NCBI RefSeq assembly: GCF_001580365.1
Contig: NZ_CP014480.1
Location: 682,001-746,000 of the forward strand
Direction of reading: 5' to 3'
DNA: 64,000 bases
From: Kocuria turfanensis
Lineage (GTDB): Bacteria; Actinomycetota; Actinomycetes; Actinomycetales; Micrococcaceae
Each line of letters starts with the position of its first letter. Within the stretch, counting starts at the first letter, position 1. This document shows, piece by piece, positions 32,859 through 37,835 of this stretch. A model generated the notes under the pieces. The model had not been told where the DNA came from, did not search any database, and saw only the letters and a program-made list of their open reading frames with translations. A program made the position numbers and the translations under genes.

Positions 32859-34439
32859 ATGACGGCAGGTGGTTCGCATCGGGGGGCACCGGGGAACCGT
32901 CACGAGCAGGCCGAGGAGCCCGCGGCAGCACAGCCCCGGCCGGAGCCGGTCACCCCGCGGCCACCGCGAGCGCACGTCGCCGTCCTGCAGGGGTTCGTCG
33001 GCTCCGTGCTGATGTTCGTCGGATCGATCGGCACCGGGTGGATCGCGAGCGGTTCTCCGATGGTCCGCCATCCTCTGGTCATCGCACTGCGCGTCGAGGG
33101 ATGGGGCGTGTACTGCTCCACCGTGCTGCTGACGGTCGGCGCGATGCTGCTGGTGCGCTCCTGGCTCCGTCTCGGGCAGAGGCTGCAGGACTGGCCCGCC
33201 GGCGCCCAGCGCCCCGTCCTGCTGGCGGTGTGCGCGTGGTCGCTGCCCCTGCTGTTCGCCGTCCCGATCTACTCCCGGGACGTCTACGCCTACATCGGGC
33301 AGGGGCGGCTCATGCTGGCCGACCAGAATCCCTACACCACCGGCATCTCCACCCTCGAGAACTGGTTCATGCTGGGCGCCGATCCGGCCTGGGCCGAGGC
33401 CCGCACTCCCTACGGGCCGCACTTCCTGTGGGCGGCGCGGGCGATCGTGGCCCTCACCGGGGCGCAGCCGGACCTGTCGGTGCTGCTCTTCCGCCTCCTG
33501 GCCTGCGCCGGTGTCCTGCTGTGCGTGGTCTATGTGCCCAAGCTGGCGCAGCTGCACGGGGTCGACCCGGCCCGGGCCCTGTGGATCGCCGTGGCCAATC
33601 CCCTGTTCCTCATCAGCTTCGTGGCCAGCGCGCACAACGACGCGCTGATGCTCGGGCTGGCCGTGGCCGGCACGTACGCCGCGGCCACGGGGCGGCCGAT
33701 CGCCGGTGTCCTGCTGGTGACCGCGTCGATCGCCGTCAAGCCCATCACCATCCTGCTGCTGCCGTTCATCGGGCTGCTGTGGGCGGGGCCGAAGGCGTCC
33801 TGGGGGCGGAGGTTCGGCCTCTGGGCGGCGACGGCGGCCCTGAGCTGCGGGGTGCTGCTGCTGAGCGGCCTCCCCTATCAGCTGGGCACCGGGTGGGTCT
33901 GGGCGCTGGTGGATCCCACCCCGGGCTTCACCGGCTACTCACCGTCCGGGTTCCTGAGCCAGCGGGTCGACCACCTCGCGGACGCGGTGGGTCTGCCGGG
34001 AGGTCAGCTGGCCTCGGCGCTGCGCAGCGCGCTGCAGTACACCGCCATCGGACTGGTGCTCCTCCTGATGTTCCGCGGCGACGACCGGCAGGTGGTCCGC
34101 AGGCTGGGACTGGCCTTCGCGGCCGTGGTGCTGCTCTCACCGATCATCCAGCCCTGGTACATCCTCTGGTTCCTGCCGTTCCTCGCCGTGACCGGCATCA
34201 AGGACAACTGGCAGATCCGCTCGCTCTACATCGTGATCACCTTCTTCGTCATCTTCGGCGCCCAGGACCAGCTCTCCGTGTGGCCGTTCATCGAGCTGCC
34301 GGTCGACGCGTCGACGATCGCGTTCGTGACGGCGCTGGCGTTCACCGCCTACCTGATCCTCCTGGACCCCCACACCCGGCACCTGCTGGTCCGCGGAGGC
34401 CCGGTGCGCTGGCTCGCCCGCCGGCGCCCCCGTCGCTGA
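32859..34439 (+). CDS. MptB-like polyprenol-phosphomannose alpha-1,6-mannosyltransferase
   Basis: Membrane mannosyltransferase of 526 residues with about twelve helices. It extends the alpha-1,6 mannan core of lipomannan outside the membrane. Typical segments are FAVPIYSRDVYAYIGQGRLM (conserved Asp-Val-Tyr), NPYTTGISTLENWFMLGADP, RTPYGPHFLWAARAIVAL, SPIIQPWYILWFLPFLAV and ANPLFLISFVASAHNDALML. I chose ATG 32859, with CTAGGGGATC upstream; the open frame begins at 32664. A TAGGAT -10 box is at 32783. Divergent from two GT87 paralogues; together with the acyltransferase-SGNH gene this is a lipoglycan cluster. Confidence 0.9.
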   Translation: MTAGGSHRGAPGNRHEQAEEPAAAQPRPEPVTPRPPRAHVAVLQGFVGSVLMFVGSIGTGWIASGSPMVRHPLVIALRVEGWGVYCSTVLLTVGAMLLVRSWLRLGQRLQDWPAGAQRPVLLAVCAWSLPLLFAVPIYSRDVYAYIGQGRLMLADQNPYTTGISTLENWFMLGADPAWAEARTPYGPHFLWAARAIVALTGAQPDLSVLLFRLLACAGVLLCVVYVPKLAQLHGVDPARALWIAVANPLFLISFVASAHNDALMLGLAVAGTYAAATGRPIAGVLLVTASIAVKPITILLLPFIGLLWAGPKASWGRRFGLWAATAALSCGVLLLSGLPYQLGTGWVWALVDPTPGFTGYSPSGFLSQRVDHLADAVGLPGGQLASALRSALQYTAIGLVLLLMFRGDDRQVVRRLGLAFAAVVLLSPIIQPWYILWFLPFLAVTGIKDNWQIRSLYIVITFFVIFGAQDQLSVWPFIELPVDASTIAFVTALAFTAYLILLDPHTRHLLVRGGPVRWLARRRPRR

Positions 34440-34455
34440 GACCCCCACGTCGGCA

Positions 34456-34535
34456 CCCGACCGCCCGACGCCCCCGGCGCCCCCGCCGGACCCGACCGCC
34501 CGACGCCCCTACCCGGCCCGACCGCCCGACGCCCC
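34456..34535. repeat. Host tandem repeat in which the IS110 element sits
   Basis: CCCGACCGCCCGACGCCCC occurs at 34456, 34491 and 34517. The third copy ends at 34535, the left junction of the insertion sequence. The right flank resumes with GGACCCGACCGCCCC (36038-36052), so the element interrupts this repeat array. Confidence 0.8.
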
Positions 34536-34547
34536 GTTACCTTCTTC

Positions 34548-34740
34548 CCAGCTCCTCGGTCCGTGATGATGAGGAGTGTTGGCCGGCCGGTCCTCGGCAT
34601 GATCGTTTGCCCCCAGTCATCCATGATCCGGGGGGTGTTGTCACCGAGGGCCGGTCCGGTGGTCACGGATCGCTGATAGAGGCGGGATCTCCTGTGGAGG
34701 ACCTTTGTAACGTGGATGCCGAGCGTGACCACCTCCCGGC
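34548..34740 (+). ncRNA. Predicted IS110 bridge (seek) RNA
   Basis: The leader can fold into three parts. (1) A 5' hairpin CTCCTC (34552-34557)/GAGGAG (34571-34576). (2) A looped stem CCGGTCCTCGG (34587-34597)/CCGAGGGCCGG (34644-34654), 11 pairs with one G-U. (3) A looped stem GGTGGTCACG (34658-34667)/CGTGACCACC (34724-34733), 10 perfect pairs. In loop 3, GATAGAGGC (34675-34683) equals the element's right end (36019-36027) and GTAACG (34707-34712) complements CGTTAC at its left end (34535-34540). In loop 2, GCCCC (34609-34613) equals the left flank and CGGGGGGTG (34629-34637) complements the right flank CACCCCCCG (36027-36035). This matches donor- and target-binding loops. Ends approximate. 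Confidence 0.7.
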
Positions 34741-34784
34741 CGGCCAGCACGTGCAGATGCCATCGCAGGAGAAGGGACCCGGCC

Positions 34785-36011
34785 ATGTCAGAGCAACCAT
34801 CCCCGGCGGTGTTCGTCGGCCTCGACGTCGGCAAGTCCGACCATCACGCCGTGGCCGTCACGAGCACGGGGAGGGCGGTCTATGACAAAGCTCTGCCCAA
34901 CGACGAGGCTCGGCTGCGGGCGATTCTTGAGGCCCTGATCGTCGAGCACGGGCCGGTGCTGATGGTCGTTGATCAGCCGGCCACCATCGGGGCGCTGCCG
35001 GTGGCGGTGGCCCAGGCGATGGAGTCTGTCACCGTGGCATACCTGCCGGGACTGGCCATGCGCCGGATCGCGGACCTGCACCCGGGTGCGGCGAAGACGG
35101 ACGCCCGCGACGCGTTGATCATCGCCGAGGCCGCCCGGACCATGCCGCACACCCTGCGGAACATCCGGGTGGACGAGGCTCAGATCGCCGAGCTGGGTGT
35201 GCTGGCCGGCTTCGACGACGACCTCGCCGCCCAGATCACCGCCACCTCGAACCGTCTGCGGGGGATGCTCACCCAGATCCACCCCGCCCTGGAACGGGTC
35301 CTCGGGCCGCGGGTGACCCACCCGGCGGTGGCCGACCTGCTCACCCGCTACCCGACCCCGGCGAAGCTGCAGACGGCCGGACGGGGTCATGTGAGGGCGA
35401 GGCTGAAGAAGCACGCCCCGCGGCTGGCCGAGCCGTTGACCGAGGAGGTCTTCGACGCCCTGGGCCAGCAGAGCGTGGTCGTGGCCGGTACCGAGGCCGC
35501 CGCCACCGTCATCCCGATCCTGGCCGGGCAGCTGGCCGGCCTGATCCATCAGCGCGCCACGGTGGCTACCCAGGTCGAGGCCCTCGTGGAGGCCCACCCT
35601 CTTTCCGCGGTCCTGACCTCGATGCCCGGCATCGGCGTCAGGACCGCCGCGAGGATCCTCACCGAAGTCGTCGGCAAGGACTTCCGAGACGCCGGGCACT
35701 TGGCCTCCTACGCCGGAATCGCCCCGGTTACCCGAAGGTCGGGAACCTCGATCCGCGGCGAGCACGCCGCCAAGGGCGGGAACAAGAGACTCAAACGGGC
35801 GCTGTTCCTCTCCGCCTTCGCCTCACTCAACCACCCGCCCTCCCGGGCGTACTACGACCGCAAGCGCGCCCAGGGCAAACGCCATAACCAGGCGATCATC
35901 GCCCTGGCCCGCCGACGGATCGACGTCCTGTACGCGATGCTGCGCGACGGGACCCTCTACCAAGACCCCACCGAGCCTCAGAGCCCGTCACCGGTGGCCC
36001 TGGCCGCTTGA
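34785..36011 (+). CDS. IS110-family DEDD transposase (recombinase)
   Basis: Transposase of 408 residues. The N-terminal RuvC-like DEDD domain has Asp14 (VGLDVGKSDHH), Asp63 (VVDQPATIG; many relatives have Glu here) and Asp106/Asp109 (KTDARDALII). A coiled middle region is followed by the Transposase_20 C-terminal domain: SMPGIGVRTAARILTEV (helix-hairpin-helix), LASYAGIAPVTRRSGTS with probable catalytic Ser319, and KRALFLSAFASLNHPPSRAYYDRKRAQGK. ATG 34785 follows GGAGAAGGGACC. IS110 enzymes cut and paste via a circle without terminal repeats, guided by the bridge RNA of the leader. Intact, so potentially active. Confidence 0.93.
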   Translation: MSEQPSPAVFVGLDVGKSDHHAVAVTSTGRAVYDKALPNDEARLRAILEALIVEHGPVLMVVDQPATIGALPVAVAQAMESVTVAYLPGLAMRRIADLHPGAAKTDARDALIIAEAARTMPHTLRNIRVDEAQIAELGVLAGFDDDLAAQITATSNRLRGMLTQIHPALERVLGPRVTHPAVADLLTRYPTPAKLQTAGRGHVRARLKKHAPRLAEPLTEEVFDALGQQSVVVAGTEAAATVIPILAGQLAGLIHQRATVATQVEALVEAHPLSAVLTSMPGIGVRTAARILTEVVGKDFRDAGHLASYAGIAPVTRRSGTSIRGEHAAKGGNKRLKRALFLSAFASLNHPPSRAYYDRKRAQGKRHNQAIIALARRRIDVLYAMLRDGTLYQDPTEPQSPSPVALAA

Positions 36012-36027
36012 CGAAAACGATAGAGGC
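36008..36027 (+). promoter_or_regulatory. IS110 right end with half promoter TTGACG
   Basis: TTGACG (36008-36013) overlaps the transposase stop. When the right end (to 36027) joins the left end (from 34536) in the excised circle, TACCTT (34538-34543) falls 16 bases downstream, forming a TTGACG-16-TACCTT promoter that would transcribe the leader RNA. Junction promoters of this type are known for IS110 circles. Confidence 0.55.
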
Positions 36028-36150
36028 ACCCCCCGTCGGACCCGACCGCCCCGGACCGCGACGGCAACCGGCCGAGCGGTGGCCGCGGGCACCGCCGGGC
36101 CGTGGGGGCAGCGGCGGCGCCGTCGCGGCCCGGGGCCGGTGAGGTCGCGC

Positions 36151-36181
36151 CGACGGCGCCGTCGTGACGTCCGGCTAGAGT
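36151..36181 (+). promoter_or_regulatory. Leaderless promoter of prfC and adjacent palindrome
   Basis: TAGAGT (36176-36181) ends 7 bases before ATG 36189, so the transcript would start at the ATG. CGACGGCGCCGTCG (36151-36164) is a perfect 14-base palindrome just upstream, covering the -35 zone, possibly an operator. Confidence 0.45.
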
Positions 36182-36188
36182 CGTGGGC

Positions 36189-37835
36189 ATGGCCGGACAG
36201 CAGACAGCACGCACCCCGTCGACCCTGCTCGACGGGTCCGCCCCGGAGACGGTCGCGGCGGAGGCCGCCCGCCGGCGCACGTTCGCGGTGATCTCCCACC
36301 CGGATGCGGGCAAGTCGACGCTGACCGAGGCCCTGGCCCTGCACGCGCGCGTCATCGAGGAGGCCGGGGCGACCCACGGCAAGTCCAGCCGGAAGGCCAC
36401 GGTCTCGGACTGGATGCAGATGGAGCAGGACCGGGGCATCTCGATCAGCTCGGCCGCCCTGCAGTTCAGCTACCGGGACACCGTGGTCAACCTGCTCGAC
36501 ACCCCCGGCCACGCCGACTTCTCCGAGGACACCTACCGGGTGCTGGCCGCGGTGGACTGCGCGGTGATGCTCGTCGACGCCGCCAAGGGCCTGGAGACCC
36601 AGACCCTGAAGCTCTTCGACGTGTGCGCACGGCGGGGCCTGCCGGTGATCACCGTGATCAACAAGTGGGACCGCCCCGGCAAGGACGCCCTGGAGCTCAT
36701 GGACGAGGTGCAGCAGCGCACCGGCCGGGTGCCGGTGCCGCTGACCTGGCCGGTGGGGCTGTCCGGGGACTTCCGGGGCACCCTGGATCCGCGCACCCGC
36801 ACCTACACCCGGTACCGGCGGGTGGCCGCCGGCGCCGCCCTGGCCGAGGCGGAGGTGCTCGACCCCGCGCAGGCCGCCGAGCTCGAGGGGGCGGCGTGGA
36901 CGGAGGCGTGCGAGACGGCCGATCTGGTGGCCGAGAGCAACGGGGCGTTCGAGCCCGGGGCGTTCCTGGCCGCAGAGGCCACCCCGGTGCTGTTCGCCGC
37001 CGCGGCCCTGAACTTCGGGGTGGGCACCCTGCTCGACGTCCTGGTCGACCTCGCGCCCCCGGCCGGCGCGCGTCCCGACGCCGCGGGGGTCCCGCGGCCG
37101 GTGGACGCGCCGTTCTCCGGGTTCGTGTTCAAGCTCCAGGCCGGGATGGACCGCGCCCACCGGGACCACGTGGCGTTCCTGCGGGTCTGCTCCGGGGTGT
37201 TCCGGCGCGGGACGGTGCTCACGCACGGGGCCACCGGCAAACCGTTCGCCACCAAGTACGCCCACCAGGTCTTCGGCCGGGACCGGGAGACCGTCGAGAC
37301 CGCCTTCCCCGGGGACGTGGTGGGGCTGGTCAACGCCTCGGCGCTGCGGGCCGGGGACAGCGTCTATACCGGCACGCCGGTGACCTTCCCGCCCATTCCG
37401 CACTTCTCCCCCGAGCACTTCCAGGTGGCCCGGGCCGTGGACGCCGGGCGGGCCAAGCAGTTCCGCCGTGGGATCACCCAGCTCGAGCACGAGGGCGTCA
37501 TCCAGGTGCTGCGCTCGGAGGTCCGCGGGGACCAGGCGCCGGTGCTCGCGGCGGTGGGCCCGATGCAGTTCGAGGTCGTGGCCGACCGGATGGCCCAGGA
37601 GTTCGGTGCGCAGGTGCGCCTGGAGGCCCTTCCCTACACCCTCGCCCGGCGAGTCGTCGCCCCCGATCCCGGCGTGCTGAACCAGGTGCCGGGCGTCGAG
37701 GTGCTGTGGCGCTCCGACGGCGAGGCGGTGGCGGTGCTCACCGACAAGTGGAAGCTCGGCCGCATTCCCACCTACGCCCCCGAGGCGTCCCTCGAACCGA
37801 TCGGCGGCGACGCCGAGGAGACCACCCCCGCCTGA
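36189..37835 (+). CDS. prfC: Peptide chain release factor 3
   Basis: Translational GTPase RF3 of 548 residues, which recycles RF1/RF2 after termination. G1 is SHPDAGKSTLTEAL (residues about 37-50), then DRGISISSAALQF (switch I), DTPGHADFSEDTYR (G3), NKWDRPGKDALELMDEV (G4) and the RF3-specific C-terminus (MQFEVVADRMAQEFGAQVRLE). Its length fits the family (about 530-550). ATG 36189 is chosen because the -10 box leads to a leaderless start; GTG 36183 is the alternative. It is not linked to other translation genes here. The last 64 bases overlap the opposite-strand membrane protein gene. Confidence 0.95.
   Translation: MAGQQTARTPSTLLDGSAPETVAAEAARRRTFAVISHPDAGKSTLTEALALHARVIEEAGATHGKSSRKATVSDWMQMEQDRGISISSAALQFSYRDTVVNLLDTPGHADFSEDTYRVLAAVDCAVMLVDAAKGLETQTLKLFDVCARRGLPVITVINKWDRPGKDALELMDEVQQRTGRVPVPLTWPVGLSGDFRGTLDPRTRTYTRYRRVAAGAALAEAEVLDPAQAAELEGAAWTEACETADLVAESNGAFEPGAFLAAEATPVLFAAAALNFGVGTLLDVLVDLAPPAGARPDAAGVPRPVDAPFSGFVFKLQAGMDRAHRDHVAFLRVCSGVFRRGTVLTHGATGKPFATKYAHQVFGRDRETVETAFPGDVVGLVNASALRAGDSVYTGTPVTFPPIPHFSPEHFQVARAVDAGRAKQFRRGITQLEHEGVIQVLRSEVRGDQAPVLAAVGPMQFEVVADRMAQEFGAQVRLEALPYTLARRVVAPDPGVLNQVPGVEVLWRSDGEAVAVLTDKWKLGRIPTYAPEASLEPIGGDAEETTPA

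Follow-up and report, generated by a model that had tools for sequence, protein, structure and literature searches.

A Kocuria IS110-group element with a predicted bridge RNA, found with its relatives in homopolymer C tracts

The window, a stretch of 64,000 nucleotides from Kocuria turfanensis, contains one intact IS110-type recombinase gene (34785-36011), whose product carries the Pfam domains DEDD_Tnp_IS110 and Transposase_20. At 408 amino acids the protein has the size (about 300-460 amino acids) and the domain pair (PF01548 and PF02371) of the IS110 family, and it also matches the solved transposases of IS621 and ISCro4 by sequence (PDB 8wt6 and 9t56). Residues D14, D63, D106 and D109 lie at the DEDD motifs, assigned by motif position rather than by alignment, and IS621 has E60 where this protein has D63. 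In the serine region, S319 is aligned with residue 243 of chain 8wt6, which equals the published S241 if two extra residues are assumed. The gene is preceded by a non-coding left end of 249 bp and followed by 18 bp after its stop codon, the long-left and short-right layout of the IS110 group. Membership of the IS1111 group was rejected because the RNA layout lies in the left end and the right end has only 18 bp. The locus comprises the following features.

34532..34535, forward strand: left target half CCCC, the last two letters being the target core CC
34536..36029, forward strand: complete IS110-group element, beginning with GTTACC and ending with the donor core AC (net insert 1494 bp), bounded by three identical copies with differing flanks, by RE-AC-LE junctions and by the empty site of an ISEc20 relative
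34538..34543, forward strand: -10-like box TACCTT, the promoter being complete only when the ends are joined
34552..34576, forward strand: predicted 5' stem-loop of the bridge RNA, CTCCTC/GAGGAG, seen in the sequence and lying outside the counted alignment
34587..34654, forward strand: predicted target-binding loop module with an 11-bp closing stem (34587-34597 with 34644-34654)
34606..34614, forward strand: putative left target guide (LTG) TTTGCCCCC, agreeing with the flank at positions 6-9
34630..34636, forward strand: putative right target guide (RTG) GGGGGGT, with five G for the right target, one G for core C9 and the T for donor A8
34637..34638, forward strand: candidate target-loop handshake guide GT, able to pair with donor positions 6-7 (GC, one G-U), from the sequence and the IS621 handshake rule
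34658..34733, forward strand: predicted donor-binding loop module with a 10-bp closing stem (34658-34667 with 34724-34733)
34675..34683, forward strand: putative left donor guide GATAGAGGC, the same letters as in the right end at 36019-36027
34707..34713, forward strand: putative right donor guide GTAACGT, the complement of ACGTTAC, in which core AC precedes the left end
34714..34715, forward strand: candidate donor-loop handshake guide GG, able to pair with target positions 6-7 (CC), likewise from the sequence and the IS621 handshake rule
34785..36011, forward strand: IS110 recombinase, 408 amino acids (PF01548, 2.2e-45; PF02371, 2.4e-20; match to 8wt6, 1.1e-13)
36008..36013, forward strand: -35-like box TTGACG in the right end, overlapping the transposase stop codon
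36019..36029, forward strand: left donor and donor core, GATAGAGGC-AC, with AC in 60 of 65 right ends by script and 59 on inspection
36030..36034, forward strand: right target half CCCCC, followed by G at 36035

The window genome encodes three copies of the recombinase protein at 100% identity as well as two distant IS110 relatives. The element DNA is identical in all three copies, which are full-length and lie at unrelated sites; the two further copies, at C1:497182 and C1:2530200, suggest recent movement. Common to the three are GTTACC at the left and GATAGAGGCACCCCCC at the right, where the end falls in a C run and is not placeable by alignment alone. In three relatives (L014, L051 and L073) a right end abuts a left end as GGC-AC-GTTAC. 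These RE-AC-LE junctions of L014, L051 and L073 (1704-3486) are chromosomal and equivalent to a circle junction, and L073 carries two leaders of the same type in tandem. Because of these junctions and an exact empty site in E. coli (described below), we place the right end at 36029, correcting the 36027 of the preliminary description, and assign the AC to the element. Within CACCCCCCG, the bases CA belong to the element, the next C is core and the flank starts with CCCCCG; the last C, inside the C tract, is ambiguous, while the A is unambiguous. The right ends behind the count of 60 in 65 were located with a TTGAC requirement, and the script miscounted L065, which is without AC. A right core of CC instead of AC also occurs in L133, L140 and L143, outside those 65 ends.

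Bridge RNAs, or seekRNAs, are established for IS110 elements (PMC11208160; PMC11187229). The 5' hairpin and the two looped stems of 11 and 10 bp that had been proposed for the leader are present in the sequence, and we compared them in an alignment of 28 leaders picked by hand from 97 candidates. RNAalifold predicts 34 pairs in this alignment, 14 of them with changes on both sides. Over 23 scaffold pairs, 92.4% of cells pair, and 83 cells show a both-sided change compared with 30.5 in shuffled alignments (0 of 500). On four of the five measures of stem covariation, none of the 500 shuffles reached the observed value, and on the remaining one a single shuffle did; the structure was derived from the tested alignment itself, and shuffling leaves relatedness in place. 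When partner columns were slid by one to three positions, the covariation score fell from 0.432 to at most 0.144. Among the 28 sequences, the target module has 97.3% of cells paired over 12 pairs (the closing stem and four inner pairs), six of which changed on both sides, and the two helices of the donor module have 84.3% and 76.8% of cells paired, with both-sided changes in five of seven pairs. The fold of the window leader itself has a z-score of -2.12, and 3 of 200 shuffles are as stable, a modest result alone. Neither the whole window, at gathering scores, nor 34400-36200, at E<=1, gave an Rfam match. Judged by these comparisons, the leader is of the bridge-RNA layout, with a 5' hairpin, a target loop and a donor loop, the loops being conserved while the stems show compensatory changes.

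The second loop contains both proposed donor matches, GATAGAGGC (34675-34683), identical to the right end, and GTAACG (34707-34712), complementary to CGTTAC at the left junction. Across relatives the left donor guide is the same as the right end over eight letters in 50 of 65 loci, counts in which some right ends or donor guides misread by the script (e.g. L034, L065, L073 and L078) were kept. The guide changes along with the end, as in the variants ATAGAGGC, ATAGAAGC, ATAGGGGC, ATAGGGAC and ATAGAGAC; for 16 guide/end types, 46 of 64 variable letters match against a shuffled mean of 37.6 (p 0.002, with no correction for relatedness). The right donor guide hardly varies; in L071 and L072 it shows a compensated change, GTAAG accompanying a left end of CTTAC. 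In sequence comparison, then, the predicted donor guides change in step with the element ends among the relatives.

The promoter proposed for the joined ends keeps its two boxes, TTGACG and TACCTT, while their spacing becomes 18 rather than 16: joining the ends yields TTGACG-N18-TACCTT. Among 58 right ends found without requiring a -35 box, TTGAC lies upstream in 56, with a spacer of 18 in 52 and of 17 in 4. The initial reading of the locus as an IS110 element with a bridge RNA, donor and target guides and a junction promoter is thus supported by the sequence tests. The element might instead be a decayed and inactive IS110 copy with a leader that resembles a bridge RNA by descent only. Activity is beyond what sequence alone shows, but three identical full-length copies at unrelated sites suggest recent movement, and the reading frame and ends are intact, so we consider decay highly unlikely.

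The first loop contains GCCCCC at 34609-34614 and CGGGGGGTG at 34629-34637, the basis of the flank matches reported before. The GC-rich target deduced from them was too loose a description; the flanks of the element and its relatives show the target to be a homopolymer tract, with about nine C or more. For this comparison, 99 recognised leaders were reduced to 88 loci by dropping those without either flank and repeated flank pairs, the loci being distinct insertions rather than independent lineages, with homopolymer lengths that can be off by one in assemblies. Fifteen viral_contigs loci and the distant IS110 copies L004 and L005 (frames only) were left out. The hosts are actinobacteria and proteobacteria, including Kocuria, Micrococcus, Arthrobacter, Leucobacter, Actinoplanes, Paraburkholderia and Pandoraea. 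Left flanks were obtained for 83 of the 88 loci; three or more terminal C are present in 76 of them and four or more in 71. On the right (64 of 88 loci), the flank opens with four or more C in 56 cases and with five or more in 50. Joining the two flanks gives a tract of C9 or longer in 47 of 59 loci, nine being the commonest length (16 loci).

We also checked whether copies with the same loops lie in unrelated targets, and most other copies were in C tracts. The exceptions on the right, with fewer than four C, are eight of the 64 flanks: the junctions of L014, L051 and L073, plus L043, L044, L052, L063 and L103. On the left, seven of the 83 flanks end in fewer than three C, and L072, outside this count, is without a left C tract. 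Six Microbacterium relatives (L022, L023, L026, L027, L031 and L033) have no recognisable right end and contribute to the left counts only. Judging from the left flank of L064, two elements seem to share one C tract there, the AC of the first being separated from the left end of the second by about eight C. In the left flanks of L059 and L065, the left end is immediately preceded by an additional GTTACCCC or GTTACCCCC, as if an earlier insertion had left a scar or insertions were nested.

In the window genome, all three copies lie on contig C1, in reconstructed tracts of C9, C9 and C10, and they occupy three of the four C9-or-longer tracts of that contig. Both strands of the 4.16-Mb genome together have six unoccupied C9-or-longer tracts, one of them on C1, and 16 exact C8 tracts. 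A C9 tract is not rare everywhere, since other genomes of the genus hold 4 to 538 overlapping nine-base windows (ten of the twelve genomes with a match were checked). The idea that the element sits in a host repeat did not hold, and a dispersed repeat was rejected as the target: a genome search with 34440-34535 gave no second match at E<=1e-5. What repeats is a 16-mer, GACCGCCCGACGCCCC, found three times in the left flank (34459-34535). Annotated sites outside the genus (L132, L133, L137, L140 and L143) lie between annotated genes, and at L134 a small hypothetical gene on the opposite strand stops about four bases short of the element. Inspected by eye, the third window-genome copy (L003) appears to interrupt a reading frame within its final codons, which after joining read CTG CCC CCC CCC CGC TAG.

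Empty sites were sought for the window-genome copies and for E. coli relatives; 1430 E. coli genomes contain a match to the leader. Ten E. coli regions were fetched and reduced to four sites; six regions are seemingly one site, for which flanks were compared in L134, L135 and L139 and annotation only in L136, L138 and L142. Another region, L141, is without a left end, and its RefSeq annotation reads 'IS110 family RNA-guided transposase'. In E. coli strain 163, the ISEc20 copy L137 is flanked by fadL and yfdF. After removal of the segment GTTACT...GGGGCAC, its joined flanks equal K-12 MG1655 over 300 of 300 bases, and the empty target holds a C9 tract. A place covering at least 80% of this joined query was present in 4150 of 5426 E. 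coli genomes. From this exact empty site it follows that AC arrives with the element, that nothing is duplicated or lost, and that the target is a C9 tract. The second site, L134, has empty sites too, the best at 99.7%, and the best matches to the joined EcN site differ slightly (99.3-99.7%). For the C5 copy L140, none of the 5426 genomes covers 80% of the joined query. For copy 2 of the window genome, the joined flanks can be aligned at 70-84% with element-free sequence in seven relatives (L117-L123); in the closest three (83-84%) the site is just after a stop codon and the full C9 tract is absent. For copy 1, flanks in relatives gave no convincing alignment across the site. Insertion without target duplication, as in the IS110 family, is therefore seen exactly in the ISEc20 relative and, at 70-84%, in the relatives of copy 2.

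These sites bear on whether the poly-C flanks are artefactual, either as part of the element ends or as assembly and homopolymer errors. C runs are error-prone in assemblies, and the joined EcN site falls short of identity by the margin given above; against this, the length of the run varies from copy to copy of an identical element, the two ends meet without an intervening C run in the RE-AC-LE junctions, and the K-12 empty site has its C9 tract without any element, which refutes the artefact for the E. coli relative. We rejected the C runs as part of the element and judge an artefact of either kind to be barely credible.

The agreement between LTG and left flank is concentrated at positions 6-9 (77, 81, 76 and 79 of 82 loci). 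Position 5 agrees in 44 of 82 loci and positions 1-4 in 21 to 26, near background, so that positions 1-5 give a weak signal (p 0.02-0.09, not corrected for relatedness). The longest G run of the RTG is six in 73 of 86 loci; it is broken in L036, L066 and L075 of these 86, and in L018 outside the count. The C-tract flanks are kept in L018, L036 and L066 despite the broken RTG. L018 and L066, from two species, share the same altered RTG, GCAGGCGG, with C-tract flanks, a possible case of natural re-targeting or of mismatch tolerance; either the RTG match is not absolute or these copies inserted before their RTG changed. Just past the C run, the flanking base can pair with the RTG in 12 of 24 cases, which is no signal. 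In L102 and L105, the two loci whose left target guide has only three C (GTTGCCC), the left flank likewise has exactly three C. With C in both halves of the target, the LTG and RTG can pair with each other, and minimum-energy folding pairs their runs in 24 of 28 target loops. The guides match both strands at a C tract, and target and loop hardly vary among relatives, which limits covariation. We infer the dependence of the target on the guides, as nearly all copies share the target letters.

A competing explanation is that the C tract is recognised by the protein, or through an unusual poly-C/poly-G DNA structure, and that the C and G runs of the loop form only a structural stem. The pairing of the runs in 24 of 28 folds, the altered-RTG elements L018 and L066 that are still in C tracts, and the little guide signal beyond the C run would all suit this explanation. 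However, the layout, strand order and register match IS621, whose loops have been shown to guide (PMC11208160), and the donor guides of the same RNA covary with their DNA. The RTG also runs past the tract to fit the core and donor bases (GT-GT against GCAC), as the handshake predicts: its U facing core position 8 fits donor A8 and not target C8, and the next GU can pair with donor GC at positions 6-7. Such pairing of the RTG with donor bases after strand exchange is the handshake arrangement of IS621 (PMC11208158), and the pairing to the element's CA agrees with its prediction. Recognition by protein or DNA structure is therefore, in our view, unlikely. Left junctions keep the target core, mostly CC, and right junctions the donor core AC. 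By analogy with IS621, these cores fit a top-strand exchange after the core, with the odd base settled later. Donor and target cores share the second base but are not identical; in IS621 the two are the same, a central feature of that system.

We conclude that the locus is very probably an IS110-group bridge-RNA element that is RNA-guided into C tracts of about nine or more. The circle, transcription, RNA binding and strand exchange are extrapolated from IS621. The element would move as a circle in which the joined ends build the promoter TTGACG-N18-TACCTT, and this promoter would drive the bridge RNA from the left end. The donor loop would pair with the circle junction, GATAGAGGC-AC-GTTAC, while the target loop, with LTG ..GCCCCC and RTG GGGGGGU, would pair with a C tract of about nine or more on both its strands. 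Strand exchange at the core by the DEDD/serine recombinase would then insert the element into the tract and duplicate nothing.

Three aspects appear to be new: a broad clade fixed on poly-C, target guides that are complementary to each other, and donor and target cores that differ (AC and CC). We found no poly-C target for IS110 elements in the literature searched; the supplementary target logos of PMC11187229 may contain one. More speculatively, the cross-phylum clade could be hard-wired to C>=9, the complementary guides closing the target loop until a long tract invades, so that tract length would act as a specificity check and the differing cores would lead to a handshake at three positions; we offer this as a tentative proposal, somewhat less likely than its alternatives. 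Whereas bridge-RNA systems in the literature considered read mixed sequences, this clade would read a homopolymer, and it may serve as a natural test of self-pairing guides opening onto DNA, of register in a repetitive target and of differing cores. Most annotated sites read are intergenic, which would be a safe landing strategy.

Among known elements, ISKrh6 of Kocuria rhizophila is likewise an IS110-family element from this genus, of about 1476 bp, with a seekRNA region noted by its authors, who left its target unresolved (PMC12500396). Annotated names within the clade are ISEc20, ISSfl4, ISBma3 and ISArsp5 (plasmid records), at 66-71% protein identity. These elements differ from the window element in host range and loop details, and the ISArsp5 copy L133 has a right core of CC; the ISEc20-type and ISArsp5 copies that we read have the same loops and C-tract flanks. 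The available portions of PMC1525189, PMC2877748, PMC5629016 and PMC7373316 describe no target for the named members, one of four ISSfl4 copies being near a REP (PMC1525189). Our results suggest a target rule for ISEc20 and ISArsp5, for which the literature search gave none. The ISEc21 seekRNA system resembles what is proposed for the window element in its upstream non-coding RNA matching both target strands, its circle with a junction promoter and the absence of target duplication, but its target is a conserved site in certain IS3-family transposase genes, unlike a C tract (PMC11187229). With IS621 and ISCro4 the window element shares a recombinase with DEDD and Tnp_20 domains, a leader-RNA layout with a 5' stem-loop followed by the target loop and then the donor loop, guide polarity, handshake positions and a promoter at the RE-LE junction (PMC11208160; PMC11208158). 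The sequence match to IS621 is limited to the C-terminal part of the protein (query 275-392). IS621 inserts into a REP-type sequence and has the core CT in donor and target, whereas the window element lies in a homopolymer C tract with cores of AC and CC that differ in the first base, and has, unlike IS621, two target guides complementary to each other.
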